64,000 nucleotides of DNA from Lineus longissimus (taxonomy: Eukaryota > Nemertea > Pilidiophora > Heteronemertea > Lineidae), in the NCBI RefSeq assembly GCF_910592395.1, contig NC_088317.1, positions 12,834,001 to 12,898,000 of the forward strand, written 5' to 3'. Under the pieces are notes generated by a model. It made no database searches. It saw only the letters and a program-made list of their open reading frames with translations, and had not been told where the DNA came from. The stretch's first letter is position 1. Each line of letters begins with the position of its first letter. Below are positions 2,063 through 41,899 of this stretch, one piece after another. A program made the translations under genes and the position numbers.

Positions 2063-2222
2063 CGGTGCCAGACTGACACTCACTAGGCCTACTCGAATAG
2101 TCAGAACTCTTCCGCTTGGCAGCGAAGCCTAAAATTTTCCTACCAGGATTTCCACTCTGAGTAGACCTAGGTTGACTCGAGCTAGACTTCGAGGACTCAT
2201 TCCTCGGATTCAACTTATACAA
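1968..2222 (-). pseudogene. Gypsy A Gag-Pol linker in a shifted frame
   Basis: This Ser/Lys/Arg-rich stretch has no recognised fold. It lies between the Gag zinc knuckle and the protease and ends in the duplicated 101-bp unit. Frames run 1, 2, 1 across Gag, linker and protease. The first change may be the normal gag-pol frameshift or damage. The second is explained by the 101-bp duplication. It starts without an ATG, so it is not an independent gene. Confidence 0.6.
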
Positions 2223-2612
2223 TCAGCGTACCTGTGGGCAGTGCTATTGCACCCCCAACATCCATGATGCCTAGGATCGGGTTTTATGCCCACCAAGCTA
2301 CCCTTTGTAGCGTAATCGGTATCAGCTTTCTTTACTGAGCTACCATTCTTAAACTTCTGATCCTGTCCTAAACTAAGCTTATTGAAACCTACACCATTCA
2401 AGCTATTTGCACCATGAGCTTCCATGTATTGCTCTGCCAATCTTGCCATCTCATTCACATCCTTCGGACTCCTCTCTCTAAGGAACAGAGCGAGTGATCT
2501 GTGACATGCATTGACAAACTGCTCCCTAAGCAAAAGATCGGTCAAACCTTCATAAGACTGGTCAGAATTCGATAGACTAACCCACCTATCTAGGTACCTA
2601 TCTAACCTTGCC
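2210..2612 (-). pseudogene. Gypsy A Gag, C-terminal half (SCAN-like domain and CCHC knuckle)
   Basis: A helical segment with the pattern LLLREQFVNACHRSLALFL and NEMARLAEQYMEAH resembles the SCAN-like capsid C-terminal region of Gmr1-type Gag. It is followed by one zinc knuckle, CWGCNSTAHRYADC (C-x2-C-x4-H-x4-C), before the stop. Such Gag proteins build the particle and bind the element RNA. The frame begins abruptly at the target duplication of the 19-kb insertion. Its missing N-terminal half lies at 21711-22314 on the same strand, which shows that this was one gene. Confidence 0.8.
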
Positions 2613-2621
2613 AAAAATTGG
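2613..2621. repeat. Target-site duplication, left copy (19-kb element)
   Basis: The 9 bases aaaaattgg recur at 21702-21710. If the element is taken to start one base further in, the duplication reads caaaaattggg and is 11 bp (2612-2622 and 21701-21711). The sequence cannot choose between these because the boundary bases are shared. Confidence 0.8.
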
Positions 2622-2651
2622 GGGTCTGTGAAGTTGGCTCCCAGTTCCCAG
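2622..2651 (+). repeat. Left terminal inverted repeat of the 19-kb element
   Basis: Thirty bases starting GGGTCTGTGAAGTTGGCTCC are the exact reverse complement of 21672-21701. A short cccagtt repeat continues inward and then runs into the array. Confidence 0.85.
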
Positions 2652-2819
2652 TTCCCAGTTCCCAGTTCGCAGTTCCTTATTCGTACCCAAACATGGGTAC
2701 GAATATGGGTACGAATAAGGAACTAGGAAATGGGCTAAGCATTTCCGGCCAGTTCCCAATTCAAATTTCTTTCAAATATTAACACTCCAAAGTTCGATAA
2801 CTCAACTTGGTGGTTTTAA

Positions 2820-3965
2820 CCCTTTCCTACCGAGCTCCCGATTCAACTATCAGTGACTTTAACCCTTTCTGACACATTTCCCAGTTCAAAATGCCAGCTC
2901 CATATTCGTTTTAACTCATTTTAACCCTCTATAACTCCATTTCCCTATTCAAATGATGGCTCCCGATTCAGCTACAAGTCACTTTAACCCTTTCTGACTC
3001 CATTTCATTCATTTGCAAGTCTCTTTAAGCCATTCTGACTCCATTTCCCAGTTCAAAATGCCAGTTCCTTATTCGTCTTAACTCATTTTAACCCTCTATA
3101 ACTCCATTTCCCTATTCAAATGATGGCTCCCGATTCAGCTACAAGTCACGTTAACCCTTTCTGACTCCATTTCATTCATTTGCAAGTCACTTTAACCCTT
3201 TCTGACTCCATTTCCCAGTTCAAAATGCCAGTTCCTTATTCATCTTAACTCATTTTAACCCTCTATAAGTCCATTTCCCGATTCAAATACTGGTTCCCAA
3301 TTCAGCTACAGGTCACTTTAACCCTTTCTGACTCCATTTCATTCATTTGCAAGCCTCTTTAACCCTTTCTGACTCCATTTCCCAGTTCAAAATGCCCAGT
3401 TCCTTATTCGTCTTAACTCATTTCAACCCTCTATAACTCCATTTCCCTATTGAAATGCTGGCTCCCGATTCAGCTGCAAGTCACATTAACCCTTTCTGAC
3501 TCCATTTCATTCATTTGCAAGTCACTTTAACCCTCTCTGACTCCATTTCCCAGTTCAAAATGTCATGGATCGAGTTTGTTTACAATATGCAGTGCCATCT
3601 TGGAAAAACCGTGACGTCACCGCGGTGTCGTCCTTGATTTGCAAGTCACTTTAACCCTTTTTGACTCCATTTCCCGGTTCAAAATGCCAGCTCCTTGTTC
3701 GTCTTAACTCATTTTAACCCTCTATAAGTCCATTTCCCTATTCAAATACTGGCTCCCAATTCAGCTACAAGTCACTTTTAGCCATTCTGACTCCATTTCC
3801 CAGTTCAAAATGCCAGTTCCTTATTCGCCTTAACTCCTTTTAACCCTTTATAACTCTATTTCCCGATTCAAATGCTGTCTCCCGATTTAGCTACAAGTCA
3901 CTTTAACACTTTCTAAGCCCATTTCCCGGTTCAAAATGCCAGTTCCTTATTCGTCTTAACTCATG
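2820..3965 (+). repeat. Left subterminal array of ~167-bp repeats
   Basis: Units restart with cccgattcagctac at about 2962, 3129, 3296 and 3464, giving a period of 167-168 bp. Shorter or interrupted units occupy both ends. Each unit contains several sub-repeats of the type actttaaccctttctgactc, so it is itself internally repetitive. The array is AT-rich and has no reading frame. The same unit appears reverse-complemented in the right arm. Confidence 0.9.
3565..3640 (+). repeat. Variant segment in the left array
   Basis: This 76-bp block (atggatcgagtttgtttaca at its start, tgacgtcaccgcggt inside) interrupts the regular array. It recurs reverse-complemented at 20901-20976. Its presence in both arms shows that the arms are inverted copies of one ancestral array, not two independent expansions. 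Confidence 0.85.
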
Positions 3966-4295
3966 GGCCGCATTTTGGAATTTCTCCAAAATTGGTAAAC
4001 AATCGTTGAAGAGGAATCGATGATGCCGGTAAAAATTGACCAATATTACAGCCTTGCCTCTATCTTGACCTAACTTGAAAATAGTACACATGCCTACGGC
4101 CTATATAATGTATGCTATTGCGTGGCCTACTTACTGACATAGACTCCCTGTAGCCAGGTCAGAGCTATCCGTCCGTACTTAAGCTAAAAAAATTGCAATG
4201 CATCAGGTGTGGATATACCGCCTATCATGTGATGTCCAGTATAGCATGAAGCATGCTGTTATTCACAATGTGATCTTATTTCTGTTCCTGAAAAC

Positions 4296-4376
4296 GTGAC
4301 GTCACTGGGTCCTCCACCTGCTGACGTCACGGGATACCGGCTGTTGGTGACGCGCTCGATACCCCTCCGCACCACA
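4296..4376 (-). repeat. Truncated 3' LTR of gypsy B
   Basis: The 81 bases match the start of the 5' LTR (13490-13570 in plus coordinates), reading TGTGGTGCGGAGGGGTATCG on the minus strand. Beyond 4296 the match ends abruptly, so about 218 bp of this LTR are missing. It is preceded directly by a polypurine tract. Confidence 0.85.
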
Positions 4377-4390
4377 TTCCTCCCCCTTAG
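4377..4390 (-). promoter_or_regulatory. Polypurine tract of gypsy B
   Basis: The minus strand reads AAGGGGGAGGAA immediately before the TG that begins the 3' LTR. This is the expected position and composition for the plus-strand primer of an LTR retrotransposon. Confidence 0.8.
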
Positions 4391-4615
4391 GTCGTCTCGG
4401 GATTCGGGAAGATGAGGTTGGTCACCGTCTTCTGGGAGCTGCATGATCTTGTCGATGTACTGTACAATGTAATTCCCGGCACGAGCCTCCTCAGCCTTTT
4501 TATATCCGAAGAGACACGCCGGCTGTTTTACCAAAAAAAAACTTAACCCCACTCGGGCCTATAATATGTATGAAAAAACTAGACTTTATAGTATATTATA
4601 CAAAATTTGGACTAT

Positions 4616-4915
4616 GAATGCCCAGAAGGACCCCTCAGCTCACAAAGTCCGAGGAGCGTGCTACGATGGGACACTCAGTTCCAAGGGCACTTTAGATCAT
4701 GATTATAATAACTATATACACGGAGGGAAGTAGGAATGTCCTTAAGGACCCCTCAGCTCACAAAGTCCGAGGAGCATGCTAAAGTAGGACACCCCGTTCC
4801 AAAGACAAGTTAATAGATACATAAAGGAAACTGGAATGTCCTTAAGGACCCCTCAGCTCACAAAGTCCGAGGAGCATACTAAATTAGGACACCCCGTTAC
4901 CAAGACAACTTAATT
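4616..4915 (-). repeat. Three tandem ~100-118-bp repeats in the 3' noncoding part of gypsy B
   Basis: Copies begin gaatgcccagaagg (4616), gaatgtccttaagg (4734) and gaatgtccttaagg (4834). Each contains acccctcagctcacaaagtc and a poorly conserved spacer. They lie between the pol stop and the polypurine tract. Related text (cctcctcagcctttt) also occurs on both sides at about 4485 and 4927. Their role is unknown. Confidence 0.85.
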
Positions 4916-5388
4916 TTAGTACAAATAACTAGGGCCTCCTCAGCCTTTGATTGTCCGAAGAGGCCAAACCCGTATAAGTGAACCGAGTGTAAAACCCTCC
5001 CCAGGAATGAACCGGAATAAATAGAAAAAATGACAACACTGAATCGATGTTGAAACAAATGAGGTATCAACGATCGACAAAAGGAACAGATCACCAATTT
5101 GAATTTCAGACAGGATGAAAAATATAAAATTCCCCATAGAACAAGACAAACGAACAGAGTACCAACACGGAGTAACCGATTGGGGAAAAGACGGACCACG
5201 AGAAACCCAACCTCGGCAACCCGACTCCGGCAGAATTCAACAATCAGTCTCAAGAAGCTTGAAATAGTGGAAATCGATACGCCGATAGACGAGAATTGGA
5301 CGTATCGTAAGATAGTGTTTGAACACAGAAAGGTAAAGGGAAACAATAACCCAAGCCCGCAACTATGGAATGCCTAGTTTCATGTAAT

Positions 5389-8300
5389 CTAGAGAATATA
5401 ATCTCCCAAATAAGCCGGCAACCGCCGCCTTCTCCCACCGCGTCCATCAGACAGTCTCCAGGGTGGTTCGTCAGTTTCGTCGTACCCATTATGTACCCCC
5501 CAGAGTGGTAACCCTGGAATCGGGGGCATATCCTGAGAGAAACTGATTTCAGGGAGACTAACTGACGGGGAGGAAGACAGACTGAGGTCCAACTCGGCTT
5601 CATAGTGAGAAGTTGTCTCCTCCAACCGGGAAGCCCCGCCCAGCTCTACAGATCGTCCGGGCAGCGCATCATCGGACGGAGGAGAAACTGAAAGTAATGA
5701 AGGAGAAATATTCTCTAATGAACCCTGGGCAACATCCGCAAACTCCAATTCATCCAGAGCACAAAAGGGAAACACCCCAGTTTCCATGTCAGGGGAATCT
5801 GTACATGGAGCAATCACTGAATCGTCCGGACCAAGGAGATGATGACGCTTTCTCCGAAGCCAGAACGGTAAGATCCGATCTCGACAGAGCTTAAGCCGAT
5901 CATGATGAACGACTTGGTTCTTACTCTGCCCGTCGATGAGATATAAAACCGGCGAGATTGCCTTCTCAACCAGAAACGGACCAAGCCAAGGCGGTCTAAG
6001 TTTGGAGCTTTGCCCAACCTTGGACGCAGTGTCAGACTTGTACACGATATCCCCGGCCTGATACCTCTTTTCCCGGAGTTGTACATCATAGTCCTTTTTT
6101 CTACGGTGCTCGGCTACACCCAAGTGCTGCCGAGCGATATGATGTACAAACTCAAGTTTCTCCCGCAGCTTCAGTACGTATTCGCCGGCCGATGCTGCGG
6201 GAGGTTGTTTTAGGAATGGGCTGAGGACCAGGTCGGAGGGCATGTGAACCTCTCTTCCCAACATAAGCATGTTGGGGGTGAAACCAGTACTCCGATTCGG
6301 CATAGAGCGGATAACACCAGCGAGAAGGGGTAAATCATTATCCCAATCCCGCTGGTCCTCTCCCAGGAAACAACGAATTAATTGAAGAAGAGTGCGATTA
6401 TATCGCTCAACCTGACCATTAGACGAAGGATGATAAGGCGTAGTGAGGGTTTTTGCTATCTGAAGGAGACGACAGACAGCTCCGAATAACTTTGAAACAA
6501 AGTTACGGCCCTGATCTGTGTGTATCTCCAACGGACAACCCATGCGTGCGACAAACTCATAGACGAACGTCTGAGCAATTTGCTCAGCTCCTTGAGTGGG
6601 GAGTGGAAAGCACTCAATCCAACGGGTAAACTGATCTATAATCATGAGAATGTAAAGATTGTCATTAGAACTCGGAATAAACGGACCTAGGATATCCAGA
6701 TGGACCCTTTCCATCGGAACAGAAGCCGTAAATGGCACAATAGCGGCTTTCATTTTACGGCAGGGTTTCTTATTGATACTGCATATGGAACACGAGGCCA
6801 CATATGCATAACAATCTTGACCCATACCTCGCCAATAAAATGATTGTCTCAGACGAGAAAGAGTATTTTTGTACCCCAGATGGCCGGATGTGATGTTATC
6901 GTGAACTATACCAAAGACACGTTCTTTGAGAGATGAGGGAACCATAAGAAGCAAACGGGAATTAACAACATCATCCCACTGATACCAAAGGAGGCCATCC
7001 TCCAACACCAGTTGAGTATGACATAACCAAAGATGCCTAAGCACAGGCCCACATGACTGTAGCATGGACTTGGACGGCACAACACCTTCCTTAAGCCAAC
7101 CAATGATTTTTCCCAAATCTGGGTCTTGAGTCTGAGACGCCTCTAGTTCATCACGTGTGAAACTATCCGTCCAATTCACAGGAGAGCAATATTTTGAAAG
7201 ATCGGGAACATCTGAACAACCAGAATTGTCCGCCGGGGAAGAAGGGGACCGGGGGCACACCGGCTCTATCAGATCCTGCTCCCCCTCCAGCTCAGATACG
7301 TCCGGGGGGGAAACAGGGTCACAAACAGAACCACCCCCGACTGTCCCAGGCCCGTCGCACAACTCAACCAATGAATCTGAATGATCCAGCTCTTCAAACA
7401 AACAAGGCAGTACGTCTACACGACCAGTACCCGAAGTGACAATGTCCGGAATAAAATCCAGCTCCTCACCATCCCAACTCAACTCTGAGTCCAAATCTTG
7501 ATCTTGTAAGACACTAAGAAAAGGATTACACATGGGGTTCAACATAGGGTCCTCAGGAGAGTCGTCTGAGGAATTTAATGAAACCATCCTAATTCCCAAA
7601 GGCAAAACATCATCCACCTCCTCCTCGAAGCGTGCCCACTGATTGTGCGCCCTGGTACAGTAAGCACAACCACCACAAGGAAGACTGTCTAAGGAGATAC
7701 CCGCCCTATAACAATCACAAGCGGGGAGCAAATCAGGGAGTCGAGACAGAGCGTCAGCGTCGGCATGTAATTTACCCGGACGATGAATAATTTGGAGATC
7801 ATAGCAGCTTAGCTCTTCCAACCAACGAGCCAACTGGCCCTCAATATGCTTAAATCGCATAAGCCAAGCCAAACTGCCATGATCTGTTCTGGCCGTGAAT
7901 TTCTTCCCGAGAAGGAAGTGCCGGAATTTCCGGGTAAATCTTACCAACGCCAACAACTCCTTACGGGTGGTACAGTAACGCCGTTGCTCCGGTGTCATGG
8001 TATAACTCCCATATGCAATGACTCTTTCCTCCCCATTCTGAACCTGTAGGAGTTCCCCTCCTATGGTGCGATCAGAAGCATCGCAATCTAGAATGAAGGG
8101 GTCAGAATCATTGGGATAACTTAACACCGGAGCAGACGACAGGGCCTCCCGTAACCGTACGAAAGCGGACTGCTGCTCTGTTCCCCACTGAAATGGGACT
8201 GATTTACTGAGTAATTCGGTGAGTGAAACCACAATCTCCGAAAAACCCTTGATATGAGATCTGTGGTAATTAGCGAAGCCGAGGAAAGATTGCAACTCTC

Positions 8301-8496
8301 GGAGACACCTAGGTGGGGCCCATGACTTTACTTTCTCGATGTTCTCGGGATTGACTGCAATCCCGCGCTCATCGAGAATGTGACCCAAAACCTTAGCCGC
8401 CAGTTGAAAGAGGTTGCATTTTCGAGGCTTCAACTTGAGTTTGTGTTCACGAAACCTGAGAAGTGACTTACGGAGGAGTACCAGGTGGTCTTCAAA
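5389..8496 (-). pseudogene. Gypsy B pol, second part: end of RT, RNase H, integrase
   Basis: This continues the RT frame (same phase) after a TAA at 8497-8499. Numbering the 1014 residues from 8433, RT thumb-type sequence is followed by RNase H (about 95-235: FILDCDASD, TTRKELLA, TDHGSL, DADALSRLP). The integrase zinc domain has HDNITSGH near 509 and CSIC near 548. The DDE core has LDILGPF near 578, TDQGRNF near 639 and NGQVERYN near 672. A long Ser/Asp-rich tail of about 150 residues follows and ends at 5389. There is no obvious chromodomain. All catalytic residues I looked for are present. Confidence 0.9.
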
Positions 8497-10731
8497 TTAA
8501 GTCAATTCTCCCATAATGACGTCATCCAAGTAACAAACCAGTTTGTCCCACAACAGATCAGAGAGAATATGCTCCATCGCACTTTGATACGTCGCGGGAG
8601 CATTGCAAAGTCCGAACCCCATTTTCCGGAATTGAAAGAGACCGTATTTGCTAGACGAAAATGCAGTTTTTTCTCGATCAATGGGGGCAATCTCAATTTG
8701 CCAATACGAGGAAGTAGCATCGAGGGTGCTGAAGTACTTGCACCCCCTCAGTGTGTGGTAACATTGTTCAATGTTTGGGACAGGGTATGCATCTTTTTTT
8801 GTAACAGAGTTCAGACCCCTCCAATCACAACACCAGCGGACCTTGCCGTCTTTTTTACGGATCAACACCGGGGCCGCAGACCAGGGAGATGAAGCAGGCT
8901 CAATGACAGTGGCCTTCAACATCAAAGTGAGATTCTGCCTCTCCTCATCATCAAAAGCAACAGGAGTTCGTCTAGTCGGGACCTTAATGGGCTCAGCATC
9001 ACCAGTGTCTATATGGTGCTGCACCCCCGAAAAAGTTCCAATATCGAATTCGTCTTTTGAGAAGACATCTTGGAACTCATTCAGGAGATCAGCAACTTTC
9101 ACTGCTTGCTCGTCCGTAAGGTGTACTATAGAACGGAGATATAGATCCATTAAATACTCAGGAACAGGAGCCTTGGGATCCGGATCGGGAGGAAGAGACT
9201 CACAACTAGGAGAGAGATCAATGGGAGTTCTAAGTCCCGAAGACAACACATCAGACTTCTCATCCAAGTTCCCAACAACGTGGGAGGATGAGTCCATACG
9301 GATGTTGCGTACATTGGGTTCGGAAACCGGTGGAACATTGGGTACCAGCTTAATCGGAATTGGGATATCATTCAAGATTAGATTCTCAAGGTGAAGGTCA
9401 ATAACAGCCTTTTGTGCCTTGAGAAAATCCAACCCCAACAGAATGGGATCTGATATCGGAGCAATGTACGCGTTTACCAAGAACACCTGATCACTAATCC
9501 TGAACTCCACCCCCTCCACATACGAAGCAATAATGTCACTATCCTTGGCTGCACCTTTAAGTTTTACGGATTCTTTAGAAATGAGAGCGACAGGGAGCGA
9601 ACGCACGTAGTCTGTACTCAATACGGTAACCTGAGCAGCACTGTCTATTGTCGCTTCAGCCACCATTCCCTGTATTGAAGCCAGGACCACGGCACTCTCC
9701 CCCACTACGCCCACACCCCCAAAATCTACTTCCCGGATATAGCCAATGTCTCCAGTGTTGATTGAGGAACCAAGTGACAATATAGGATTGAAAGGGCAGA
9801 TGAGCGAGACTGAATTTGATGATGACACCACGCCTCCTCCCCCCTTCCCCAGCTCTAAATTGTCCGGAGAAGGATCAGGGGCTGGTGGTGACCCGAGGTC
9901 AAAATGAGAGATAACCGAAACGGGATTAGATGATGAAACCACACCTCCCCCCTCCCTCCCCAGCTCTAAATCGTCCGGAGAAGAATCAGGGGCGGGTGAC
10001 AACCATCTCTTACCAGGATCAAAGGATTTGAACGGAACAGATTGACAAAGACCCGAAAGGTCATTGTCACAACCTCTAACAGAACGGGGCATCCCGTCAT
10101 AGTCAACAAGGGGAAGCACTTTTCCACCTCCAACACGAGACATCCCCTGAGAGTCCTCCGAGGGGACAATGTCACAACCCTCAACAGGCCGAGACACAAC
10201 CCGACAGACACTATCATGGGACATCCCGGATATATTTGGAGGGACAAAGTCACAACCGACCGGCAAACTGGACTCTACAGGAGACGGATTACTTGGGACA
10301 GCCACGCCACAACCTTCAGAGTAAATGCAACTATCTGGGGCTACAATGTCACCACTCCAATTCGCTTGGGACGACCTCCGAGACATAACAAAATCGTAAT
10401 CCCCAAAGTCGCTGTAGACCAAACCACCAGGGGGTGGGCCAGAGGCTGGTGTCCTAGCAAGAAAAAGCTCTTCTGCTAACTCACTAGTCCACTCAGTCTC
10501 CGGCGCAACGTCGGGTAGTTCGTCATTCACGACCCGAAACGGTGACGACTTGCACACATAACCTGACTGACTTTCCAACAAGTTGCTACCGAGACTAGAT
10601 CCAGATGAAGGAACCTGAACCATACGACTGTCCGAGTCCCACGGATGAGACTCAGCTAATTGCCGTATGGTGGGAGAAACATGACTCAAAGTTGGCCTTA
10701 CGATGGTAGGGACTGAATGTCGGCCATACAT
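8497..10731 (-). CDS. Gypsy B pol, first part: protease and RT palm
   Basis: This 744-residue frame starts at an ATG 8 nt past the gag stop and is probably entered by frameshift. A long Ser/Pro/Asp-rich N-terminal region comes first. The aspartic protease motif near residue 360 reads D-S-A (AEATIDSAAQVTVLS) rather than the usual D-T-G or D-S-G. RT runs from about residue 575 with VRWCCDWRGLNS, TLDATSSYWQI, FGLCNAPATYQ and the catalytic YLDD near 734. A TAA at 8497-8499 then interrupts it, a few residues after YLDD. The same frame carries on below, so this is a single nonsense change. Confidence 0.9.
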   Translation of the reverse strand: MYGRHSVPTIVRPTLSHVSPTIRQLAESHPWDSDSRMVQVPSSGSSLGSNLLESQSGYVCKSSPFRVVNDELPDVAPETEWTSELAEELFLARTPASGPPPGGLVYSDFGDYDFVMSRRSSQANWSGDIVAPDSCIYSEGCGVAVPSNPSPVESSLPVGCDFVPPNISGMSHDSVCRVVSRPVEGCDIVPSEDSQGMSRVGGGKVLPLVDYDGMPRSVRGCDNDLSGLCQSVPFKSFDPGKRWLSPAPDSSPDDLELGREGGGVVSSSNPVSVISHFDLGSPPAPDPSPDNLELGKGGGGVVSSSNSVSLICPFNPILSLGSSINTGDIGYIREVDFGGVGVVGESAVVLASIQGMVAEATIDSAAQVTVLSTDYVRSLPVALISKESVKLKGAAKDSDIIASYVEGVEFRISDQVFLVNAYIAPISDPILLGLDFLKAQKAVIDLHLENLILNDIPIPIKLVPNVPPVSEPNVRNIRMDSSSHVVGNLDEKSDVLSSGLRTPIDLSPSCESLPPDPDPKAPVPEYLMDLYLRSIVHLTDEQAVKVADLLNEFQDVFSKDEFDIGTFSGVQHHIDTGDAEPIKVPTRRTPVAFDDEERQNLTLMLKATVIEPASSPWSAAPVLIRKKDGKVRWCCDWRGLNSVTKKDAYPVPNIEQCYHTLRGCKYFSTLDATSSYWQIEIAPIDREKTAFSSSKYGLFQFRKMGFGLCNAPATYQSAMEHILSDLLWDKLVCYLDDVIMGELT

Positions 10732-10739
10732 TTCAGTCC

Positions 10740-12818
10740 CTAAGCATTTGGGGACGGTGACGGAGACAATTTAAGACAGTTCTCCTTGATGTGCCCCTTT
10801 TCTTTACAGAAGTAACATGACACATCCGGGCAGACTCTGAAGAAGTGATCCATTGAACCGCAATTTGAACAGCCCCGCCGTGGACTGGAGGATCGGGAAC
10901 GGGAGCGCTGCCGACCGTCAAGCGAACGGAGTGCCCTGTCCACCTTCTCACCCGTCGAGGACACAGTGTTTTTTATAGTAGAGACATCCTCTCGTGTCGC
11001 CTCTACGGTTGAGCGGAGGACAGAGACATCGGTCTCCAGAACTCCAACACGTCCCTCCAGACCACCAGCAGAGACAGCACGTATGCTTGGACCATCACTT
11101 ACAGGAAGAGTAGTACGACTATAAAATTTTGACTGTTTTGTACGGCCCCAAATAGCTTTTTGATTATCCAGATTTGACTGGACTAATCTGAGGGCGTGAT
11201 CAATGTTCAGAGGACATTTGTCCATAGCAAAAATGACGGCATTCTTTTCCCGGCAGCCTCGGAAGAAGGCCTCCACCGCCAACTCATCAATAATCGCGGG
11301 CTCCGCAGAGGAAAAACCACGGGACGCAAGACGTTGCGCGCGCTCCGCGAACTCCGCCAACGATTCGTTTTCATATTGTTCAAGCTCAGCCAGACGACGG
11401 CGATACGAAACCGGAGGCTCGGTCCTCCCGAAACGGGAACGTAGTTTCATATAAATTTGATTGTAATCGTTCTGGTAATAATGAGGCAACTCCGCCACAA
11501 ACTCGAGTGCCCTCCCCCGAAGAGCGTCAATGAGACGATCTAATTTCTCCACCTCCGACCACCTATACTTGGTAGCCGCCCTCTGCATCTGTAAATCAAA
11601 GGTTGACCACTGGCCACCACCATCGAAAATAGGGAGCGGGGCTGGGGGTGGATTGTACGGACGGAAATGAGAATGACGCGAGTCGTCCCTGGAGTGATCC
11701 ATTTGTTCCGGAATTGCATGATGTTGCAGCCCAGGATCTGAAAATGGGAAACGGGGGGGCATCATGGAAGTAGAATCATATCGATGAACATCCTCTCGTC
11801 GTACCTCGGGTGACTGAAAATGGGCAGATAGATGTGGAGGAGCAGGAGTAAGTGGACGTACTTGGACACCGGGTTGAGGTGGAACCACAGCTGTAAACGG
11901 AGAATATTGGGGATATTGGGAATATTGAGGATTATATTCCGGCTGTCTATTGTCCTGAAAATGATTTGGGAGACGTGGTGTCGCAGTCAAGCCTGGACAG
12001 GGACCTGCATTCAAATAGGGAGGAACCTGAAATGGTGGAAATGGGGCACGATTCAACACCTGTCCGTGCTGACCTGAAATGTAATTCGGGGGAGGTATTG
12101 GGTATCCAGTACTAGCACCTCTCTGGTGATATGTTCCTTGTTGAACATTTGGATTAGGACAAGGACGTTGTGCAACATGAGGTGGATAATACGTAGACAA
12201 TGACGGGATCCCAACGTCCTCCAGTCGCCTCCCCAGCTCATTGCCGTCCGGAGATTGGACCGAAGAACGCAACATGGGATTACCAGCATACTGTGACGTG
12301 GGTGGCCCACGTGAAATAATCGGTTCCAAACCGTCCGATAAGTCGAATTCAGACGATCGAAGAGACCTTCGATCGTGTGATGGCGTGCTAACAACTTGCG
12401 GTCGCGCATCAAAACCTGGCGGAGCTCGCGCAGTGGGCCTAAGAGAGTAACTCCCATTAGGAGCTAATAGGCCTACAGTACGGCCTAATTCCTCGACATT
12501 GGCAGGAGGAGGGTTCCCCCAAGTAATATTCCGTCCCTTTGGACGAACACTCTGGTCCCTTGATGGAGAAGAGAAATCAATAATAGACAAGTTCCGCCAA
12601 ATGTCAAGAGTCCTATAATTAAAGATGGACAACAAGTTGTCGTAGGAACGAAATATTTGACCCCGCGCACGCGCCTCTTTCAAATATACCAACTCCGTCC
12701 GACTCGCCGGAGCGGCAGAAGGAAAGCAAAGCAAACGATCCAACTCCTCATCCGAGCACTTATTTATTGAAACCGGATTGTCATAATCTTCCGAAGCGGA
12801 AGCAAATCTAAACGCCAT
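10740..12818 (-). CDS. Gypsy B Gag polyprotein (two CCHC knuckles, helix-hairpin-helix-like N-terminus)
   Basis: This 692-residue frame with a genuine ATG is much longer than a typical Ty3/gypsy Gag. Residues 15-68 (NPVSINKCSDEELDRLLCFP, then ARARGQIFRSYDNLLSI) follow the spacing of a ComEA-like helix-hairpin-helix repeat. A long Pro/Tyr/Gln-rich stretch (about 100-390) precedes a retrotransposon Gag domain (about 400-560: PIFDGGGQWSTFDLQMQ, YYQNDYNQIYMKLRSRFG). An Arg/Ser-rich segment and two knuckles, CSNCGSMDHFFRVC and CYFCKEKGHIKENC, close the protein. The frame is intact. It should assemble the particle and package element RNA. Confidence 0.88.
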   Translation of the reverse strand: MAFRFASASEDYDNPVSINKCSDEELDRLLCFPSAAPASRTELVYLKEARARGQIFRSYDNLLSIFNYRTLDIWRNLSIIDFSSPSRDQSVRPKGRNITWGNPPPANVEELGRTVGLLAPNGSYSLRPTARAPPGFDARPQVVSTPSHDRRSLRSSEFDLSDGLEPIISRGPPTSQYAGNPMLRSSVQSPDGNELGRRLEDVGIPSLSTYYPPHVAQRPCPNPNVQQGTYHQRGASTGYPIPPPNYISGQHGQVLNRAPFPPFQVPPYLNAGPCPGLTATPRLPNHFQDNRQPEYNPQYSQYPQYSPFTAVVPPQPGVQVRPLTPAPPHLSAHFQSPEVRREDVHRYDSTSMMPPRFPFSDPGLQHHAIPEQMDHSRDDSRHSHFRPYNPPPAPLPIFDGGGQWSTFDLQMQRAATKYRWSEVEKLDRLIDALRGRALEFVAELPHYYQNDYNQIYMKLRSRFGRTEPPVSYRRRLAELEQYENESLAEFAERAQRLASRGFSSAEPAIIDELAVEAFFRGCREKNAVIFAMDKCPLNIDHALRLVQSNLDNQKAIWGRTKQSKFYSRTTLPVSDGPSIRAVSAGGLEGRVGVLETDVSVLRSTVEATREDVSTIKNTVSSTGEKVDRALRSLDGRQRSRSRSSSPRRGCSNCGSMDHFFRVCPDVSCYFCKEKGHIKENCLKLSPSPSPNA
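10746..10752 (-). promoter_or_regulatory. Candidate -1 ribosomal frameshift heptamer at the gag-pol junction
   Basis: The minus strand reads CCCAAAT in gag phase C-CCA-AAT, which fits the X-XXY-YYZ rule, two codons before the gag stop (TAG, 10740-10742). The pol frame is exactly the -1 frame and is open from about 10770. A downstream pseudoknot was not evaluated. Confidence 0.5.
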
Positions 12819-13271
12819 GACGAAAATGGTAATATAACAATATAATAATAAGAACTAGGCGGACGAATAGTAATATTACGAAATCAGAATAGAAATTCTA
12901 AGAACCGGGCCTAGGTATTCACTAGACGAGAGAGAAATAATTCAAAGGCCTAGACGGGTGTGGCACACAATAATAATTCACAATCTGACTAATGAAACTG
13001 ATACGACTAAATATGCGGGTATACGTCGCCGGTGCTCGGTACAAAAATACAGTGCGGAATAAATCAACAAATTCAACATGTGCAAGTGAAATATTAGTCG
13101 CAAACTTTTACAAAACTTCAGATACGAGAGATACTAATTGCCACACCCAAAATGTCTGAGCTAAATATATTTAATAAGGCAAAAATACATTCGCCCGAAG
13201 TTGTCAGCACAGTGTACTGACTTGTACCATCGCAAAACTACAGCCACAGTGGGTTCGAACTCGTCGCCAAT
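12819..13271 (-). promoter_or_regulatory. Gypsy B leader and primer-binding site
   Basis: The bases next to the 5' LTR read TTGGCGACGAGTTCGAACCC on the minus strand (13252-13271). This TGG-led stretch with a TTCGAA core is placed as a tRNA primer-binding site should be. I could not assign the tRNA. The remaining ~430 bp up to the gag ATG are noncoding and AT-rich. Confidence 0.55.
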
Positions 13272-13570
13272 TGTAGTGCCGGCCACTTTTAGCGAGGGGC
13301 CGGACGGGGTGACCCACGGGCTGATTCAGGTGTGCACTACCGCGAATATTCAGGTGCGAGCATGATACGGTGCATTATGCATGAAATGTGCACGAAACCG
13401 GACAAGATACGGGATAAACTTACTCTGTTGACCTCTGTTGTTTTTCTGCCCCGAGACTGGGCCTGCGAGGGCTTTTATGCGGTCCGGGAGTGACGTCACT
13501 GGGTCCTCCACCTGCTGACCTCACGGGATACCGGCTGTTGGTGACGCGCTCGATACCCCTCCGCACCACA
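13272..13570 (-). repeat. 5' LTR of gypsy B
   Basis: The 299-bp block begins TGTGGTGCGG and ends GGCACTACA on the minus strand (TG...CA ends). It is followed by the primer-binding site. Its first 81 bases recur as the truncated 3' LTR. Confidence 0.8.
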
Positions 13571-15220
13571 CAGCCATGTGCTCGTCGTGTCGGCGGGGCA
13601 CAAGCCGTCATGGGGGATGTACACTACAATACACGTGATTGATGGTTGAACATTCACTCTCGTTGATAGTGTATTATTGAAATATTTGATTGTGATGATG
13701 GTGTATTGTACTAGGCCTTGCATGCCCCCAACGTGTGGCATATTTCACATTGATACTACCAGTATCAATTACAAAAAAATAGATTGTGAGTAACAATAGG
13801 CCTACAATCAATGCTACATGTCATGAGGGTGGTGTAATATTCCTACTTCGCTGTCCGTTGTGTCACTCGTCCTTGACCTCCGTCTCGTTCTATGGTCAGG
13901 TTTCTACACTTTCTCTAACTCTTCTAAACCTCTTCGAATAAACACTCCTAAATCTCAATGTACACTGGGACTGACTGGCTGGCTTGTAAACTGCCCTAGA
14001 CTGTTGTGAGAGCTGCCATTTATATACAGGCAACAATGCAGCCTCCAGCAGCCTGGATACAGTTACCAACGCAAGCCCTGTTGCAGTGCAGCAACAACAA
14101 ACCTTAACCTGGCCAATTTAGCCAAATTAACCAAAGACAATAATATTGAAATATACTACAGTGGGAACGGGGAAGGGGGGGGGTAACTGTCTCGACGTCC
14201 CGTTAGGAAAAAAGGCTTATCCCGTTTCCCAATACGCAATTTTAGCCGAATCGTGACGCAAAACACGGCTTGTCTCGAATCCCGCTAAAATAAGGGTGTC
14301 TATCCCGAATCCCGACAGTTATTTTCGGCCCATCCCAGTGTCCCGAAAATACCCGTTCTCCCCCTCGTACATAGTAGACCATATTGTCACATTGATGTTT
14401 TCTTTCATTACAGTTAGACTTCGAGATCTACATTTTCGACAAAGGCCTGGTGTAATATTACGTACTTGATGAAGGTAATATTAATTTCTTCAAATTAGAA
14501 GCATGACGTTAATGGGGTACCAGCACAACTTCATTGACTGCTACGTGGCGCTGGTTGTAACTAAGGTATTGCATCGCTCATATCACTTGAAAAAAACATT
14601 TACCCTAGTTACGACCAAAGCTGCTTAGCAGAGGGCGATACCTCATCAGGAGCGCCACAATCATATCATTGGTGTGAAAGCATTTGTATGAAGTTTTTCA
14701 GCTCTCAATGTGTTCAATGTGTTCAAAACCTTAATTGTGAAATTGTGCACTTCGAATTCAAATTTACGTCACTACATACATTGATGTCACGGTAATTTCA
14801 CTGTTATGCTGTGCTGCTTTCAGGTTTAATGACACGAATGAGTACAAGTACATTACATTTTTCGACGAAGGCCTTCTGTAATTTCATACGCTTCTTACGG
14901 TTAGTATTGATTCATAATTTCTAGTAAAAAAGTTAATTTTGAAAGTGAAAAATATGTTACAATACAATAGACCTGCAAATACCATATACGCAAGTTTTGA
15001 ACAAATATCACACATATTCCCCAGTTGACTTGTGATGGTATTGATAATGGTGGTGGTGGTGTTATCATGTACATGGCTTCTAACGTAGTAAATGTTTTCT
15101 TTTCAGCAACATTCAATAGATTTATTTACTGTATTATCATTTCGACCAAGGCGAATTCGACACTTCAATTACACAAGGTTAGTAACTTTTGTTCACAAAA
15201 TCCAAATGGAGGCAAATACA
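13571..15220. other. Noncoding interior of the 19-kb element
   Basis: I see no convincing gene here. A G-run and a block of short cgaatcccg-type repeats occupy about 14160-14360. A short imperfect inverted repeat (gctggttgtaacta against tagttacgaccaaagc) spans 14548-14630. All open frames are under 140 codons and look random. Confidence 0.5.
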
Positions 15221-15680
15221 GAACAATCAAACTTAGTCATTCCAGTCAGTTACTGAAGCACAGTGAAAACTGTCGGGAGCAGTGCAACTTATGGCATGTC
15301 AAACTTCCAGTGACTGTCCCTGTCCATATATTTCAAGACAGTACAAATCTTGTAATCATTTTGTTTATGCAATGTACGTTATTATGTATCATTTCAGCAC
15401 AATCAAACTTAGTCATTCCAGTCAGTTACTGAAGCACAGCGAAAACTGTCTGAATTAGTGCTGCTGATGGCATGTAATTACTCTACTACCACTACCAGTG
15501 ACAGTCAATGTCCATATATTTTCAAGTGTGCGAAATTAGTACTCGTCTACTTCTTAGTATTATTTTAATGCAATGTATGTTATAAAAATATTTTTTCAAC
15601 ACTATATCAACATTCTCATTCCTGTCAGTTTCTGAAAATCAGCTAAAGCAATCGCTACCAATGCAGCTGATAACAGCAAT
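15221..15680 (+). repeat. Diverged tandem repeat, about three units of ~175-200 bp
   Basis: The phrase cacaatcaaacttagtcattccagtcagttactgaagcacag and its diverged relatives recur near 15223, 15400 and 15605 (only parts quoted: acttagtcattccagtcagt). Each is followed by gaaaactgtc and a gatggcatgt-type stretch. No coding sense is visible. Confidence 0.65.
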
Positions 15681-15962
15681 TCTTTTTGTTCCCAATGCCC
15701 ATCAATGACAATATATTTCACGCATGTGACAATCATGTAATCATCCTGTTTTTTGTGTTCTATTCATGCAATAAATAAATTCAGTATTTTCAAATCATTG
15801 GTGCTACAAAACTATTCTCATTATAGATTATTCATATTTTATAAAATGCTGTCATGTCAAATTTTGTGTCCTATAAATCATTATGAAGTCGGCATTTTAT
15901 ATACAACTTTTGTACTCCTCCTAAATAAACATACAAATCTTGTTTTATGTAAGCTTTGTATA

Positions 15963-16152
15963 TGTGACCCGTCACAGCAAAACCAGGCGCATGTCGCTCT
16001 GAGCTTGGCAGGTTGAGACGGACTGTTTGTTCATTTATCTATTGTCTGCCTTTTGTAAAATATGAGCACATCAATTTCTTCCATTATCTCCTGGTGTCAT
16101 TTAGGCTCATCTTCTGTGCGACATGTACCTGGTTTTGCTGTGACGGGTCACA
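15963..16152. mobile_element. 190-bp MITE with long inverted repeats and a TA target duplication
   Basis: The ends TGTGACCCGTCACAGCAAAA and its reverse complement pair over about 35 bp with few mismatches. TA flanks both sides (15961-15962, 16153-16154). The interior is noncoding. TA duplication and size suggest a Tc1/mariner-type or similar non-autonomous element. Confidence 0.8.
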
Positions 16153-16819
16153 TATTCCATAGATATACAACACTCTAATGTCACAATGCCTCTCTCACTC
16201 GCTTTATATAGCAAGATGTATGAATTAACATGACACACCAACTATGTACAAAATTGCTAACAAACTGCACCATTTGTCAGTACACCACATGAAATACAGA
16301 GATATGTCTTAATTCTAATCTTTCATTAGCGACACCATTTCTTACCCGAGTGCCTCCTTCATTCATACATCTTGTACTTTAACTCAAGATACCCATCTTT
16401 GAATATTTTTAGTATACCAAGTACTGCAATGTCAATGTATTGAAGTCATGTTCTTGTAGTGTTATTGGCTTTCTATTATCTTGTCAAAATACCACTTGGT
16501 TCTCGCAAAATCTCAATAAAAACAAATGCTATTGCATGTATTGCATATTCTAACAGCTATCCACTGTATCGATTTATCCATCATCTGTACTCTATTTGTC
16601 ACAAAAATGTTATATTATGTAAATCATATTTCATTACATAATGCACACTGCCAATCGTTGCTGAACCATTCATACGTCATTTAAATAAATAATTTTCAAC
16701 TTTTTAAAACCGTCTTATAGTACTGTTCTTGTCACTTAGCTGAACCTATTGCTCTATAGCATGAAATTTCCAGAAATGCCCCAGGGACTGAAAAGTGCTG
16801 TTTTAACAGAGAGGTGTCC

Positions 16820-17430
16820 TAAACTGAGAAGTCGAGTTGAATGGAAACAACCAATTTGGAACCAAAAACTACTGTCCTTATTAAAGAGGTTGTCCTCAAT
16901 AGAAAGGTGTCCACAAAAAGTAGGTCCACTGTATATGAAAGTACAAACCCTGGTACATGTAGTGACATCATCTACTCCTCGATGTGGACACCTGCAAATG
17001 CAGCGACAATGTCACATCAGTTATTTAATTCATCGTCCTTTGTGCAGATGGCACCACCCATCAAGCATGTTGGTGACGAATAGTGTCGCAGCATTTCGTC
17101 ACCGAGCTTACACGAAAATGCACTCATTCATTCAGCCATAAGTGTAAGACTGTAGGGTTGTTTCCAACCAAAACATGTTCGAAATGTGTCAAGCATTCGG
17201 AACACCCAAAGACTGATTAGAATGGTCAAAATTGAATGGAAACAACCAATTTGGGACCAAAACTAGTGTCCTTATTGGAAAGGTTGTCTTTAATAGAGAG
17301 GTGTCTACTAACGGAGGTTCCACTGTATATAATGTAGGAACCCTGGTTGTGACATTGTCCACTCCTCCAGCTGCACACCACCAAATCCACAACAATGTCA
17401 CACCAGTTATTTAGTTCATCATGCTTATGG
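16820..17430 (+). repeat. Diverged direct duplication (~400-bp offset)
   Basis: Bases 16838-17040 and 17236-17430 align over phrases such as gaatggaaacaaccaatttg, ccactgtatat and caatgtcacaccagttattt. Short open frames here come from the repeat and I do not call a gene. Confidence 0.7.
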
Positions 17431-17849
17431 TCATTGTACTTTCATCTTATGTAAAATGTAACTTTTTACACGGTTTCAATAAACGATTTGTAATTTGTAA
17501 TTTGTAAATTATAAATTTCACTAATTAACTCACACAATGTAGTGAGTGTAATGGTTACGTATGTGTATAAAGTGTAAACAAAATTCATATATCCATCATG
17601 TCCATCGAATCTGAAAAAATTTGTGCAGACCCATGACAATTCTGGTTCCGGTAGTTTGTCGCATTCCATACGGGCCGCGCTTGCCGATCCTGCTTTCACG
17701 ACGCACCGCAACCACAGTTACCATGATTCCCATTGTTTCCTTCCTCGTGACGCAATTATTTCATGACGTCATGAGCCATTGACCATTCACGCAAGTAGAT
17801 TTATTCACACCAGCTCCACTGTCCTGAAGTGCGGGTGTGGGACATCATG

Positions 17850-18390
17850 TATCTAAAAATCGTCTGCTAAAACATACAGGACAACAACGTCGGCGGAGAC
17901 AGTTGTGACATTTCATTGCAGACGAAGTAAACGTCATCTCGATTTACGTACTTTACTTCCAAAAAGTCAGTTTTAACACTACTGCACAAATATAGAGTGG
18001 TCATAATGTTCCATTTGGATAGAGATTTGACGGACTGATTTGGAAATTCATTCTAATTCCAACCATGCAACTGTTTCAGAAATGAGAAAAAGCTCCTGGG
18101 TGTCATGACATGCATGGTGTGTCTTGCCTCTGCATTTTTGTACTCAGGCATGTCAGAGGGTTTTCAATTTTCATATCATTGAAGAAAGTCCAATCTACAA
18201 GTATATCAATCACATCATTTATTTAAAAATCGTCTGCTAGGACATACAGGACAACGTCGGTGGAGACAGTTGGGACATTTCAATTTTCATTGCATAGAGA
18301 TTTGACGGACGGATTTGGAAATTCATTCCAACCATGCAACTGTTTCAGAAATGAGAAAAAGCTCCTGGGTGTCATGACATGCATTCAATT
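17850..18390 (+). repeat. Diverged direct duplication (~270-360-bp offset)
   Basis: aaaatcgtctgctaaaacat (17857) recurs near 18226, and atagagatttgacggact (18020) recurs near 18294. Both copies end in gctcctgggtgtcatgacat. It is noncoding. Confidence 0.75.
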
Positions 18391-18499
18391 ATTATTTCAC
18401 CACAAATAGCTGCTTCTTCCAGCAGATATGAGACAGCTACCGGGGCGGGGACTATTTCTTTATGGGGCCCTATTGTTCAGCGTCTCCAAGGAATTATAT

Positions 18500-18665
18500 T
18501 TTTAGAGTCCAATGGGGGGGGGGGGGGTTGGGGGGGCTTCCTCCCAATGTACTGGCTAAAACCTGTCACTTTCAGAGAACGGGGGAGGGGGTTTGGGGGA
18601 CTCATCCCCCAATGTACTGGCTATATATGTCAGAAGGACGGGGGTTTGGGGGGCTCCCCCATGTC
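18500..18665 (+). repeat. G-rich repeat block
   Basis: There are three partial copies of a unit containing aatgtactggct and runs of 5-13 G, separated by 60-90 bp. The G-runs could form quadruplex structures and are also a typical place for assembly error. Confidence 0.6.
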
Positions 18666-19247
18666 AAACAGTTGTGTGAGTTCACTAGAGATTGCTCTTT
18701 ACATATTAATTTGACGCCGCCAATTCCACTGGTCTTCGAAATACGTAAGCTACACTGTTGACGACTATGACACTTCTCACAAACCACATTGTGAATCAGA
18801 CGCCGATAGGCTTGTTTTATCTTTATCTGTTCTGTTAACACACAGACCATGCATACCTTGGCCTAGGAATTTTATTACGCAATGGAAGATTAAGGGGATG
18901 TCAGCAGCAGATTAGGCTAGTTGCCCTTCGCCCTTCCTCTACGATCATAGATAAACATAAGACCAAGAGGTGTTAAGTGAGAATGGGTATTCCGAGGTAA
19001 CAGGCCCTGGTACTCAGCTATACGCCTTTGATGCTGTGACTAGAGGTCCCAGGGCCGGGTTATGAGCAGGGCAGTTGCAGCTGGGATGAGTCGTTGATGC
19101 CTTGGCGTAATTTACTGGGTAGAATCAAAATTATATATGGCGAGTAAACAAAGAAGCATTTTAAACCTGGAATGAATGATCAAGTTTATATGCAATATTC
19201 ATTGAAAGATGCGGTTAAGTATTGTTATGGTAAACAAAACTGAATGA

Positions 19248-19294
19248 ATTTGTACAACAATTTGTACAACAATTTGTACAACAATTTGTACAAC
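19248..19294 (+). repeat. 12-bp tandem repeat
   Basis: About four copies of caatttgtacaa. This is simple sequence inside the 19-kb element. Confidence 0.85.
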
Positions 19295-19689
19295 AGGTTC
19301 GTGAGAAACAACTCTTAAACAACTTGGTTATTCTAAGACTAAATTGAATCTGCTTTATTATCCACAAACATATCATATACGGGTTACAAATACGTACAGG
19401 ATGAATGCAATTACTCTGATTGGTTCAGAGAAAGGGATTAAAATCAGGAATGGTAATTAAGTCGTCTCATTGACTGCAAGAGGGAGGAGCTTAGCGGCAA
19501 GCTGCAAGTGGTATAAACAAGCATGGTTACATACATAATTAGCTGGCGGCGACAGCTAGTACACAATAATACAAGATAAACCAGGGATACCCGTCTCAAA
19601 ATAGTGCCACCTTCGTAGTGGCCATACAAAATATAGCAACTGTGGTCATCCGCGTATCACCTGATTGTACGAGAAACTTCAGACTTAGC

Positions 19690-21600
19690 TGAGCAGGGTT
19701 AAAATGAGTTAAGACGAATAAGGAACTGGCATTTTGAACTGGGAAATGAAGTCAGAAAGGGTTAAAGAGACTTGCAAATGAATGAAATGGAGTCAGAAAG
19801 GGTTAAAGTGACTTGTAGCTGAATCGGGAGCCATCATTTGAATAGGGAAATGGAGTTATAGAGGGTTAAAATGAGTTAAGACGAATAAGGAACTGGCATT
19901 TTGAACTAGGAAATGGAGTCAGAAAGGGTTAAAGTGACTTGCAAATGAATGAAATGGAGTCAGAAAGGGTTAAAGTGACTTGTAGCTGAATCGGGAGCCA
20001 TCATTTGAATAGGGAAATGGAGTTATAGAGGGTTAAAATGAGTTAAGACGAATAAGGAACTGGCATTTTGAACTAGGAAATGGAGTCAGAAAGGGTTAAA
20101 GTGACTTGCAAATGAATGAAATGGAGTCAGAAAGGGTTAACGTGACTTGCAGCTGAATCGGGAGCCAGCATTTGAATAGGGAAATGGAGTTATAGAGGGT
20201 TAAAATGAGTTAAGACGAATAAGGAACTGTCATTTTGAACTGGGAAATGGAGTCAGAAAGGGTTAAAGTGACTTGTAGCTGAATCGGGAGCCAGCATTTG
20301 AATGGGGAAGTGGAGTTATAGAGGGTTAAAATGCGTTAAGACGAATAAGTAGCTGGCATTTTGAACTGGGAAATGGGCTTAGAAAGTGTTGTAAACAATC
20401 ATCAACGTTTGCACAGAAAAATGCCATCAAAGTCATCCTTTAGCTAACTTTGCAATGCTGGCCCAGACCTACTATTCAAGATGGCAGCCGAAATAAAATA
20501 CACAAAACTTGGTTCACGCCAAGTTGATTCTAATCAATACATATAATCCTAATTACTACAGCAAAACTGAGGGCATACATGGGTAAATTCAGACCTATTA
20601 TGTAATCTTCGCACGTTCCGAAAGCTGTCTGGGGTGAGGAACTGGGCTGTTTATTGGGATAGCATTTAATACTTATAGAGGGGTAAAATGACGAATAAGG
20701 AACTGACATTTTGAACTGGGAAATGGAGTCAGAAAGGGTTAAAGTGATTTGCAAATGAATAAAATGGAGTCAGAAAGGGTTAAAGTGACTTGTAGCTGAA
20801 TTGGGAGCCAGTATTTGAGGGTTAAAATGAGTTAAGACGAATAAGGAGCTCGCATTTTGAACCGGGAAATGGAGTCAAAAAGGGTTAAAGTGACTTGCAA
20901 ATCGAGGACGATACCGCGGTGACGTCACGGCTTTTCCAAGATGGCACTGCATATTGTAAACAAACTCGATCCACGGCATTTTGAACTGGGAAATGGAGTC
21001 AGAAAGGGTTAAAGAGACTTGCAAATGAATGAAATGGAGGCAGAAAGGGTTAACGTGACTTGCAGCTGAATCGGGAGCCAGCATTTGAATAGGGAAATGG
21101 ACTTATAGAGGGTTAAAATGAGTTAAGACGAATAAGGAGCTGGCATTTTGAACTGGGAAATGGAGTCAGAGAGGGTTAAAGTGACTTGCAAATGAATGAA
21201 ATGGAGTCAGAAAGGGTTAACGTGACTTGTAGCTGAATCGGGAGCCAGCATTTGAATAGGGAAATGGACTTATAGAGGGTTAAAATGAGTTAAGACGAAT
21301 AAGGAGCTGGCATTTTGAATTGGGAAATGGAGTCAGAAAGGGTTAAAGTGACTTGCAAATGAATGAAATGGAGTCAGAACGGGTTAAAGTGACTGTAAAT
21401 GAATCGGGAAATGGAGTTATAAAAGGTTAAAACGAGTTAAGATGAATAAGGAGCTGGTATTTTGAACCGGGAAATGGGTCAGAAAGGGTTAAAGTCACTG
21501 ACAGTTGAATCGAGAGCTTGGTGGGAAAGGGTTAAAACCACCAAGTTGAGTTATCGGACTGTGGAGGGTTAATATTTGAAAGAAATTTGAATTGGGAACT
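19690..21600 (-). repeat. Right subterminal array of ~167-bp repeats (inverted relative to the left array)
   Basis: The same unit as the left array, reverse-complemented (gggttaaagtgacttgcaaa, gtagctgaatcgggagcc), repeats about eleven times with part-units. It is interrupted at about 20397-20680 by a unique block. The matching variant segment lies at 20901-20976. No genes are present. Confidence 0.9.
20901..20976 (-). repeat. Variant segment in the right array
   Basis: Reverse-complement partner of 3565-3640, including accgcggtgacgtcac and gcactgcatattgtaaac. Small differences between the two copies give a way to date divergence of the arms. Confidence 0.85.
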
Positions 21601-21671
21601 GGGAAATGCTTAGCCCATTTCGTACCCAAACACACCATGTTTCAAAATGGGTACGTATAACGAACTGGGAT

Positions 21672-21701
21672 CTGGGAACTGGGAGCCAACTTCACAGACC
21701 C
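21672..21701 (-). repeat. Right terminal inverted repeat of the 19-kb element
   Basis: Thirty bases that are exactly reverse-complementary to 2622-2651, followed directly by the second copy of the target duplication (21702-21710). Confidence 0.85.
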
Positions 21702-21710
21702 AAAAATTGG

Positions 21711-22317
21711 GTGGAGTTCTCGCCTTTCTCAGGTCTCGCCTCCCTAAACCTATGCCTATACCCTTCTTCAGTATGTTGGTATCTTTTCAACAGTTCCGTT
21801 TTCACCTTATCATAATCAGATGCATCAACAGTTTTCATTTGACTATGTGCGTCCAATGCTTTACCAGTTAATACAGTACTCAGGCGGAAAACCCACTCGT
21901 CCTTATCCCATCTCTGTTGCGTCGCGACGCGTTCATACCGTGCGATATACGCATCCATGTCATCGCCTTTTTCATCAAACTTTGGAATTTCTGGAGGCCG
22001 CATCTTGAAAGCTGGGTCGGCACGGGCTGCGCCACTTGCTGCGGTGGCGGCTTTAGCGCGTTCAATTTCTAATCTGCTCAGCTGCATCTCTCTTTCATGC
22101 TCACGAGTCAAGCGACGTTCTTCACGGGCCTCGGCGGCGGCGGCATTGGCTTTTGCTTCTGCCCTTTCAGCGAGTTCGGCTTCTTCCGCGGCGTTTTCAG
22201 CATATAATCTTGCATGTGCTTGTCGACGAACTCGCGCAATGGCTCACCAGACAGGCATAATGAAGTGCCTACTGCTAAATACTCCTTTAAAAGCTTGGCT
22301 GACATAGCGAATCAATA
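21711..22317 (-). pseudogene. Gypsy A Gag, N-terminal half, one frameshift
   Basis: The frame starts with MSAKLLKEYLAVGTSL (ATG 22303-22305). It then runs through an Ala/Glu/Arg-rich coiled-coil-like stretch and a Gag core: PPEIPKFDEKGDDMDAYIAR, RWDKDEWVFRLSTVLTGKAL, DYDKVKTELLKRYQHTEEGY. A single frameshift lies near 22190, where the Ala/Glu stretch continues in another frame. The sequence breaks off in the target duplication of the 19-kb element, exactly where the C-terminal half resumes at 2612. The PKFDEKGDDMDAYI motif is characteristic of Gags with a SCAN-like region. Confidence 0.82.
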
Positions 22318-41768: not shown

Positions 41769-41899
41769 ATCACTGCATGATAATTTAGGTACATGTATGT
41801 GTCCACTTGCTGGTTTGTCACATGAGAATACTACAATGCCATTGACCTTACACAAGTGAAACGAGAGTACGCTACTGACTTTGCACTGCTCCCTCTTGA

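Follow-up and report, generated by a model that had tools for sequence, protein, structure and literature searches.

A probable Foldback-type transposon family with tandem-unit arms in the nemertean Lineus longissimus

In Drosophila FB and sea urchin TU, the inverted arms are composed of tandem sub-repeats. Among the closest described systems, as set out in the excerpts of the articles cited here, Tetris, a foldback of Drosophila virilis, carries tandem units of ~220 bp and has target-site duplications (TSDs) of 8-10 bp, in a paper that also cites other foldbacks including Drosophila FB and sea urchin elements (PMC4079207). Tm1, a Mutator/Foldback element of root-knot nematodes, has 9-bp TSDs, and some of its elements encode a putative Phantom/Mutator-like transposase (PMC3169594). 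Galileo, a Drosophila element of the P superfamily, generates 7-bp TSDs (PMC3573991) and bears THAP sites in its tandem repeats, which supports such arrays as binding sites (PMC3688188). The Rehavkus and Phantom groups of Mutator-like elements have 9-bp TSDs (8-10 bp in Phantom) (PMC6446971). Here, we describe an element at positions 2622-21701 of a 64,000-nt stretch of the genome of the nemertean Lineus longissimus (NC_088317.1, 12,834,001-12,898,000; hereafter the window, whose positions serve as coordinates throughout). This element is very probably a non-autonomous Foldback-type cut-and-paste DNA transposon belonging to a recently active family.

The characters that define Foldback elements are all present: inverted arms of tandem units, a variable number of units, a TSD of constant length, and a variable middle that usually lacks a transposase. 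The novelty lies in the family, its host group and the structure of its unit, the foldback design itself being known.

Boundaries, insertion site and arm architecture

The target gene, the element ends and the two arms are located as follows (+, forward strand; -, reverse strand).

2210..2621 (-): gypsy A gag, 3' part (target gene)
2613..2621 (no strand): left TSD copy, 9 bp, AAAAATTGG
2622..2651 (+): left terminal inverted repeat, 30 bp, exact match to the right end
2622..2858 (+): left flanking domain, with the terminal repeat, TTCCCAG heptamers, a short hairpin and a unique part that is shared; inner boundary drawn by eye
2859..3965 (+): left array of A63+B63+C41 units, forming a 167-bp higher-order unit
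3563..3638 (+): 76-bp variant segment of the left arm
19691..21492 (-): right array, mirror of the left, with more units and one ~300-bp non-array stretch
20901..20976 (-): 76-bp variant segment of the right arm
21493..21701 (-): right flanking domain; inner boundary drawn by eye
21672..21701 (-): right terminal inverted repeat, 30 bp, exact
21702..21710 (no strand): right TSD copy, 9 bp, AAAAATTGG
21702..22243 (-): gypsy A gag, 5' part (target gene)

The identical 30-bp inverted ends reported in the first-pass annotation of this DNA are exact at 2622-2651 (+) and 21672-21701 (-). Within the window, their sequence (GGGTCTGTGAAGTTGGCTCCCAGTTCCCAG) matches at these two places alone when up to 3 mismatches are allowed, compared with a mean of 0 in shuffled sequence (n = 100). 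Two random window positions share a 9-bp flank by chance at a frequency of 44/2,000,000 (2.2e-5). The duplication had been given as 9 or 11 bp; the symmetric reading is 9 bp, and the 11-bp alternative arises because the CC of the target abuts the CCC of the right end.

When the flanks of the element were joined in silico, a single open gag frame crossed the insertion site. A 240-bp empty-site query returned six matches in the genome, four of them full-length and the other two being the window's own halves. These four empty sites lie in other gypsy A copies and are printed as 100, 99, 95 and 94% identical; for the first of them, the bit score points to one mismatch (239/240) despite the printed 100%. 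An empty site is located at C6:8543332. Since real empty sites exist elsewhere in the genome, the element must have inserted into a gypsy A copy, and the TSD, the rejoined frame and these four sites bear out the earlier proposal of a mobile element interrupting gag. The near-identity of the best empty site suggests that the insertion is recent. Gypsy A also contains a 101-bp tandem duplication (99%) at 1860-2063, at the start of its integrase frame.

The left (2622-3965) and right (19691-21701) arms are mirror images. From the outside inwards, each consists of a flanking domain of ~210-240 bp followed by repeating units A, B and C. The oppositely oriented arrays of a ~167-bp unit, and the 76-bp variant in both, had already been recognized; the unit proved to be a composite of 63, 63 and 41 bp, in which B is 73% like A. 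The two variant segments differ at 5 of 76 bases. As they occupy corresponding places in both arms, one arm seems to derive from the other by inverted copying, with gain and loss of units. The right arm has an additional inner array of ~3.5 units with 98% matches.

A multi-copy family and the native size of the element

A search of the genome (391 Mb) with the 23-bp end at up to 2 mismatches yielded 99 matches, 48 forward and 51 reverse, against 0 for the reversed control. Fifty of these ends paired into 25 elements of 688-23,104 bp, 21 of which have an exact 9-bp TSD; no exact repeat of any other length within 6-13 bp was present for any pair. Three groups each copy one insertion (two pairs on C14, two on C16, and three across C5, C8 and C13; flanks compared), so that the 25 pairs represent 21 independent insertions, 17 of them with an exact 9-bp TSD. 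Further copies with the same ends and a target duplication, which the first-pass annotation had proposed to look for, are thus present. The 17 exact TSDs are 64% A+T and display no strong motif.

The number of sub-repeats varies across arms and copies, with arm lengths from <100 bp to ~2.5 kb by a crude anchor count over all 25 pairs; the tandem-unit structure is established in detail for the window copy and by anchor count for the others. We compared the terminal 260 bp of 21 elements (42 ends; four duplicate rows dropped). Ends from different elements are up to 100% identical over aligned columns, which indicates recent movement of the family. Mean identity was 0.91 to the partner end versus 0.94 to other ends (L036, which had no usable alignment, was scored 0). 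Because identity to the partner is no higher than to the others, sharing of ends between copies is at least as extensive as sharing within them. Both ends of the window copy have their closest counterpart in L043: the left ends match at 99.6% and the right ends at 98.8%, compared with 93% between the window copy's own two ends.

Two further observations concern the distribution of copies. The same foldback insertion, with TSD AACTTTATC, occurs on three chromosomes, at L043 (C13), L044-L045 (C5) and L046-L048 (C8); the left flanks are ~99.5% alike over up to 1.17 kb, and the copies later differ in their inserts. The shared TSD and flanks indicate that a larger unit carrying the insertion was copied. 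On C14, eight unpaired reverse foldback ends are spread over 3.13-8.30 Mb, and L012, the sole one read, appears by eye to be a half copy.

The interior of the window copy is divided as follows.

3966..4260 (no strand): native middle domain, left part, joined directly to 18813 onward in other copies
4261..18812 (no strand): nested insert, 14,552 bp, with a 4-bp TSD, TGTT (4257-4260 / 18813-18816)
4297..13570 (-): gypsy B, a long terminal repeat (LTR) retrotransposon inside the nested insert; RNase H-integrase (RH-IN) 5392-8496, protease-reverse transcriptase (PR-RT) 8500-10770, gag 10743-12854
18813..19690 (no strand): native middle domain, right part; longest stop-free segment 70 amino acids (aa)

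Position 4260 is joined straight to 18813 in L039, the C5 copy and the C8 copy, and likewise, in inverted orientation, in L037/L038; these five rows without the nested insert correspond to three independent insertions. Since other copies lack the 14,552-bp insert and the insert has its own 4-bp TSD, the large size is secondary. The native window element measures ~4,528 bp (~4.5 kb) versus its present span of 19.1 kb, and the description "giant" does not apply to it, the remainder being nested insertion. That reading, in which gypsy B and the rest of the 14.5 kb would be the element's own cargo, accommodates the fact that the ends and the TSD enclose the entire 19.1 kb; given the direct junction in the other copies and the separate TSD of the insert, we consider it highly improbable.

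A 12-bp inverted repeat (ATTCACAATGTG) lies near both ends of the nested insert (4261-4272 / 18785-18796). The retrotransposon previously noted inside the element is indeed present, but it sits within this later insert. Its two ends (4296-4376 / 13490-13570) have in common only an 81-bp repeat (80/81 identical), so one gypsy B LTR seems truncated. From the outermost inwards, the nest consists of gypsy A, the foldback element, the insert and gypsy B. Several copies of one part of this unclassified insert (~17520-18709) occur in each of two further foldback loci, L016 and L021.

Transposase candidates and mode of movement

In keeping with the first-pass annotation, no transposase was visible in the window copy among the segments scanned. 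Of 51 stop-free segments (>=45 aa) in 13571-19690, the 10 longest were scanned and had no Pfam match above the cut-off. In the native middle (18813-19690), 7 segments reach 40 aa, and the 4 of them scanned had no Pfam match at all; one 45-aa segment in 3966-4260 lay outside the scan. A stop-free segment of 100 aa is absent from 11 of the 25 paired elements. For the other paired elements, the longest or a longest piece was scanned and most shorter segments were left out, as was L042 (one 106-aa segment); for L023, L038 and the C5 copy, the longest segment was scanned in a near-identical twin instead. Matches among the 25 pieces scanned over all fetched loci comprised BEL/Pao, copia, PIF1, Ulp1-like, zf-His_Me, Myb/SANT, THAP and PF20700. 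None of these 25 pieces represents a transposase common to the family, the pieces being nested elements or nothing.

A 16-bp end pattern matched 47+57 sites versus 1+2 for the control. As just 8 of the 100 matches listed fall outside the 99 ends, no large group of autonomous elements with just the outermost tip in common came to light. No match was obtained for the end in a viral collection or for the array in viral and prokaryote genomes, as expected of collections without animal sequences, and Rfam (gathering threshold) and tRNA scans returned nothing.

Four candidates were considered and rejected. The PF20700 gene in the unpaired copy L014 is not supported as the family's own transposase, as 29 of 31 PF20700 clusters have no foldback end nearby; the remaining 2 lie within 15 kb of one, where ~0.3 would be expected under uniform chance, a mild excess (clustering used 61 start positions of the 72 matches and 98 of 99 ends, leaving out the overlapping C6:12741611). 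A MULE-like (Mutator-like element) fragment of 145 aa, also in L014, lies between its own 95-bp inverted repeats. The THAP piece found in two copies is carried by a distinct nested element that has TTAA at either end. PF10551 (MULE-domain) matches near the C14 foldback ends are outside the element, 2.8-4.6 kb beyond the end at 6 of 8.

Two of these domains also recur in other settings. A tandem cluster at C13:10107975-10225086 contains 16 near-identical PF20700 (Mutator-like) matches, many ~3.76 kb apart; 12 of the 16 list a 746-aa open frame, three of those with a stop inside the match. The THAP-domain piece is part of a ~1.4-kb repeat at window 30579-31951, which is also nested in the foldback copies L009 and L030 (94-98% identical). 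In L009, the repeat is bounded by AGGCCATATATC...GATATATGGCCT and has TTAA on either side, which suggests a TTAA-targeting DNA transposon.

The constant 9-bp TSD and the precedent of described systems favour a trans-acting Mutator-type transposase as the most probable mover. The TSD has the ~9 bp of the Mutator superfamily and not the 7-8 bp of the P superfamily and Galileo, the exact TSDs all being 9 bp; no MULE transposase match was listed between the ends of any of the 25 pairs (49 ends being unpaired). The Mutator-like label given earlier is plausible from the constant TSD and that precedent, but lacks a transposase with matching ends. This genome is rich in Mutator-type transposases that could act in trans, with none tied to foldback ends; many PF10551 matches have long open frames. 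For one transposase ORF of the genome, the closest named relative is a Lineus longissimus sequence, 97% identical over 48% of the query.

Under this mechanism, a transposase supplied from another locus, most probably a member of the Mutator superfamily, would bind the element ends and, by analogy, probably also the repeated sites of the arrays, excise the element and insert it with a 9-bp stagger. The arrays would grow and shrink by slippage or unequal exchange and would be swapped between copies. The 19-kb size itself came later, through the 14.55-kb insert carrying the gypsy retrotransposon. A more elaborate proposal, in which the 63+63+41-bp arms exchanged among copies are multi-site transposase-binding arrays moved in trans by a host Mutator-type transposase, for example from a young PF20700 family, strikes us as unlikely. 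On C20 one PF20700 gene sits inside a foldback copy, and on C11 a PF20700 cluster is found ~8 kb from another foldback end, although most PF20700 loci show no foldback ends nearby.

Several results weigh against a Foldback-type element moved in this way. No autonomous copy with GGGTCTGTGAAG ends was found, and no transposase was recognized between the ends of the 25 pairs. Profile searches gave at least 127 PF10551 and at least 72 PF20700 matches (both lower bounds), and none of those listed falls between paired ends when the 25 pairs are compared by eye. Four of the 25 pairs lack an exact TSD (L034 has 8/9 and L030 7/9, L009 and L041 none to speak of), and 49 of the 99 ends are unpaired, one of them overlapping a paired end. 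An end's own partner is its nearest relative for just 3 of 42 ends. The arrays may serve as extra transposase sites, a role drawn by analogy with Galileo.

The same element might instead be mobilized by a different superfamily. Merlin-like, hAT and P-like elements have TSDs of 8-9 bp, that of the P superfamily being 8 bp. Such a mover would fit the lack of any listed Mutator-type match between the ends of the 25 pairs, and Galileo demonstrates that a foldback layout can arise in the P superfamily (PMC3573991). However, all 21 exact TSDs are 9 bp, as opposed to 7 bp in Galileo (PMC3573991), the THAP fragment in two copies is a separate nested element with TTAA ends, and Tm1 and Tetris, the closest systems by layout and TSD, were assigned to or suggested for Mutator by their authors in the excerpts cited. 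We regard another superfamily as a possible but distinctly less probable source of the transposase. A further explanation would make the structure an artefact, two inverted satellite arrays having been joined by chance, by recombination or in assembly. Repeat arrays are prone to misassembly, but the TSD, the four empty sites and 16 further independent insertions with an exact 9-bp TSD reduce this explanation to a negligible probability. A non-autonomous Foldback-type element, probably mobilized in trans, accounts best for the locus.

Additional repeats and coding segments lie elsewhere in the window. Two open reading frames (ORFs) with a DDE_1 transposase domain (44517-45500 and 48604-49149) are presumably pogo/jerky-like. 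An ORF resembling those of long interspersed nuclear elements (LINE-like; 58871-61120), has endonuclease and reverse transcriptase domains; after it comes a 433-aa frame that has no Pfam match. Positions 53585-54163 form a near-perfect palindrome of 579 bp (91.6%), which has a relative at 41453-41786.

Significance and comparison with known foldback systems

Foldback elements gain here a family with many copies and recent activity, very probably from Nemertea. The literature matches listed contained no nemertean term for a foldback or transposon report, with subscription papers mostly outside their coverage, which is not proof of absence; in the main-text portion of the Lineus longissimus genome paper, neither "repeat" nor "transpos" occurs (PMC8593623). 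Near-identical copies with differing unit counts, together with near-exact empty sites, provide a natural series on how transposon arms become satellite-like arrays. The locus also illustrates that the apparent size and layout of a mobile element can stem from nesting.

The first-pass annotation knew of no named family with this layout. That view is not upheld, because the layout is that of Foldback elements and is found in Tetris and Tm1 and, within the P superfamily, in Galileo. The arms were likened to those of Tetris, Tm1, FB and TU by their descriptions. FB and TU differ from the present element in hosts and units.

According to the same excerpts, members of Rehavkus/Phantom share the 9-bp TSD, and some have minisatellites near one end; unlike the element described here, which has arrays at both ends and no transposase found, these groups are defined by their transposases, Rehavkus by one with a PHD finger, together with a minisatellite ahead of the 3' terminal inverted repeat. 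Galileo resembles it in its long arms and, in one subfamily, in ~210-bp tandem repeats of variable copy number, but differs in its 7-bp TSD and in having a known THAP/P-type transposase. Tetris combines, like the present element, a flanking domain and a tandem-unit outer domain in long inverted arms with a variable non-coding middle, and no transposase is reported in the copies found. Its host belongs to another phylum and its unit is ~220 bp versus 167 bp here; the likeness concerns layout. Tm1 differs in its ~14-bp units, its asymmetric 7-bp outer motifs and the putative Phantom-like transposase that some elements encode, yet it shares with the Lineus longissimus family composite inverted arms with a variable number of tandem units, 9-bp TSDs and non-autonomous copies.

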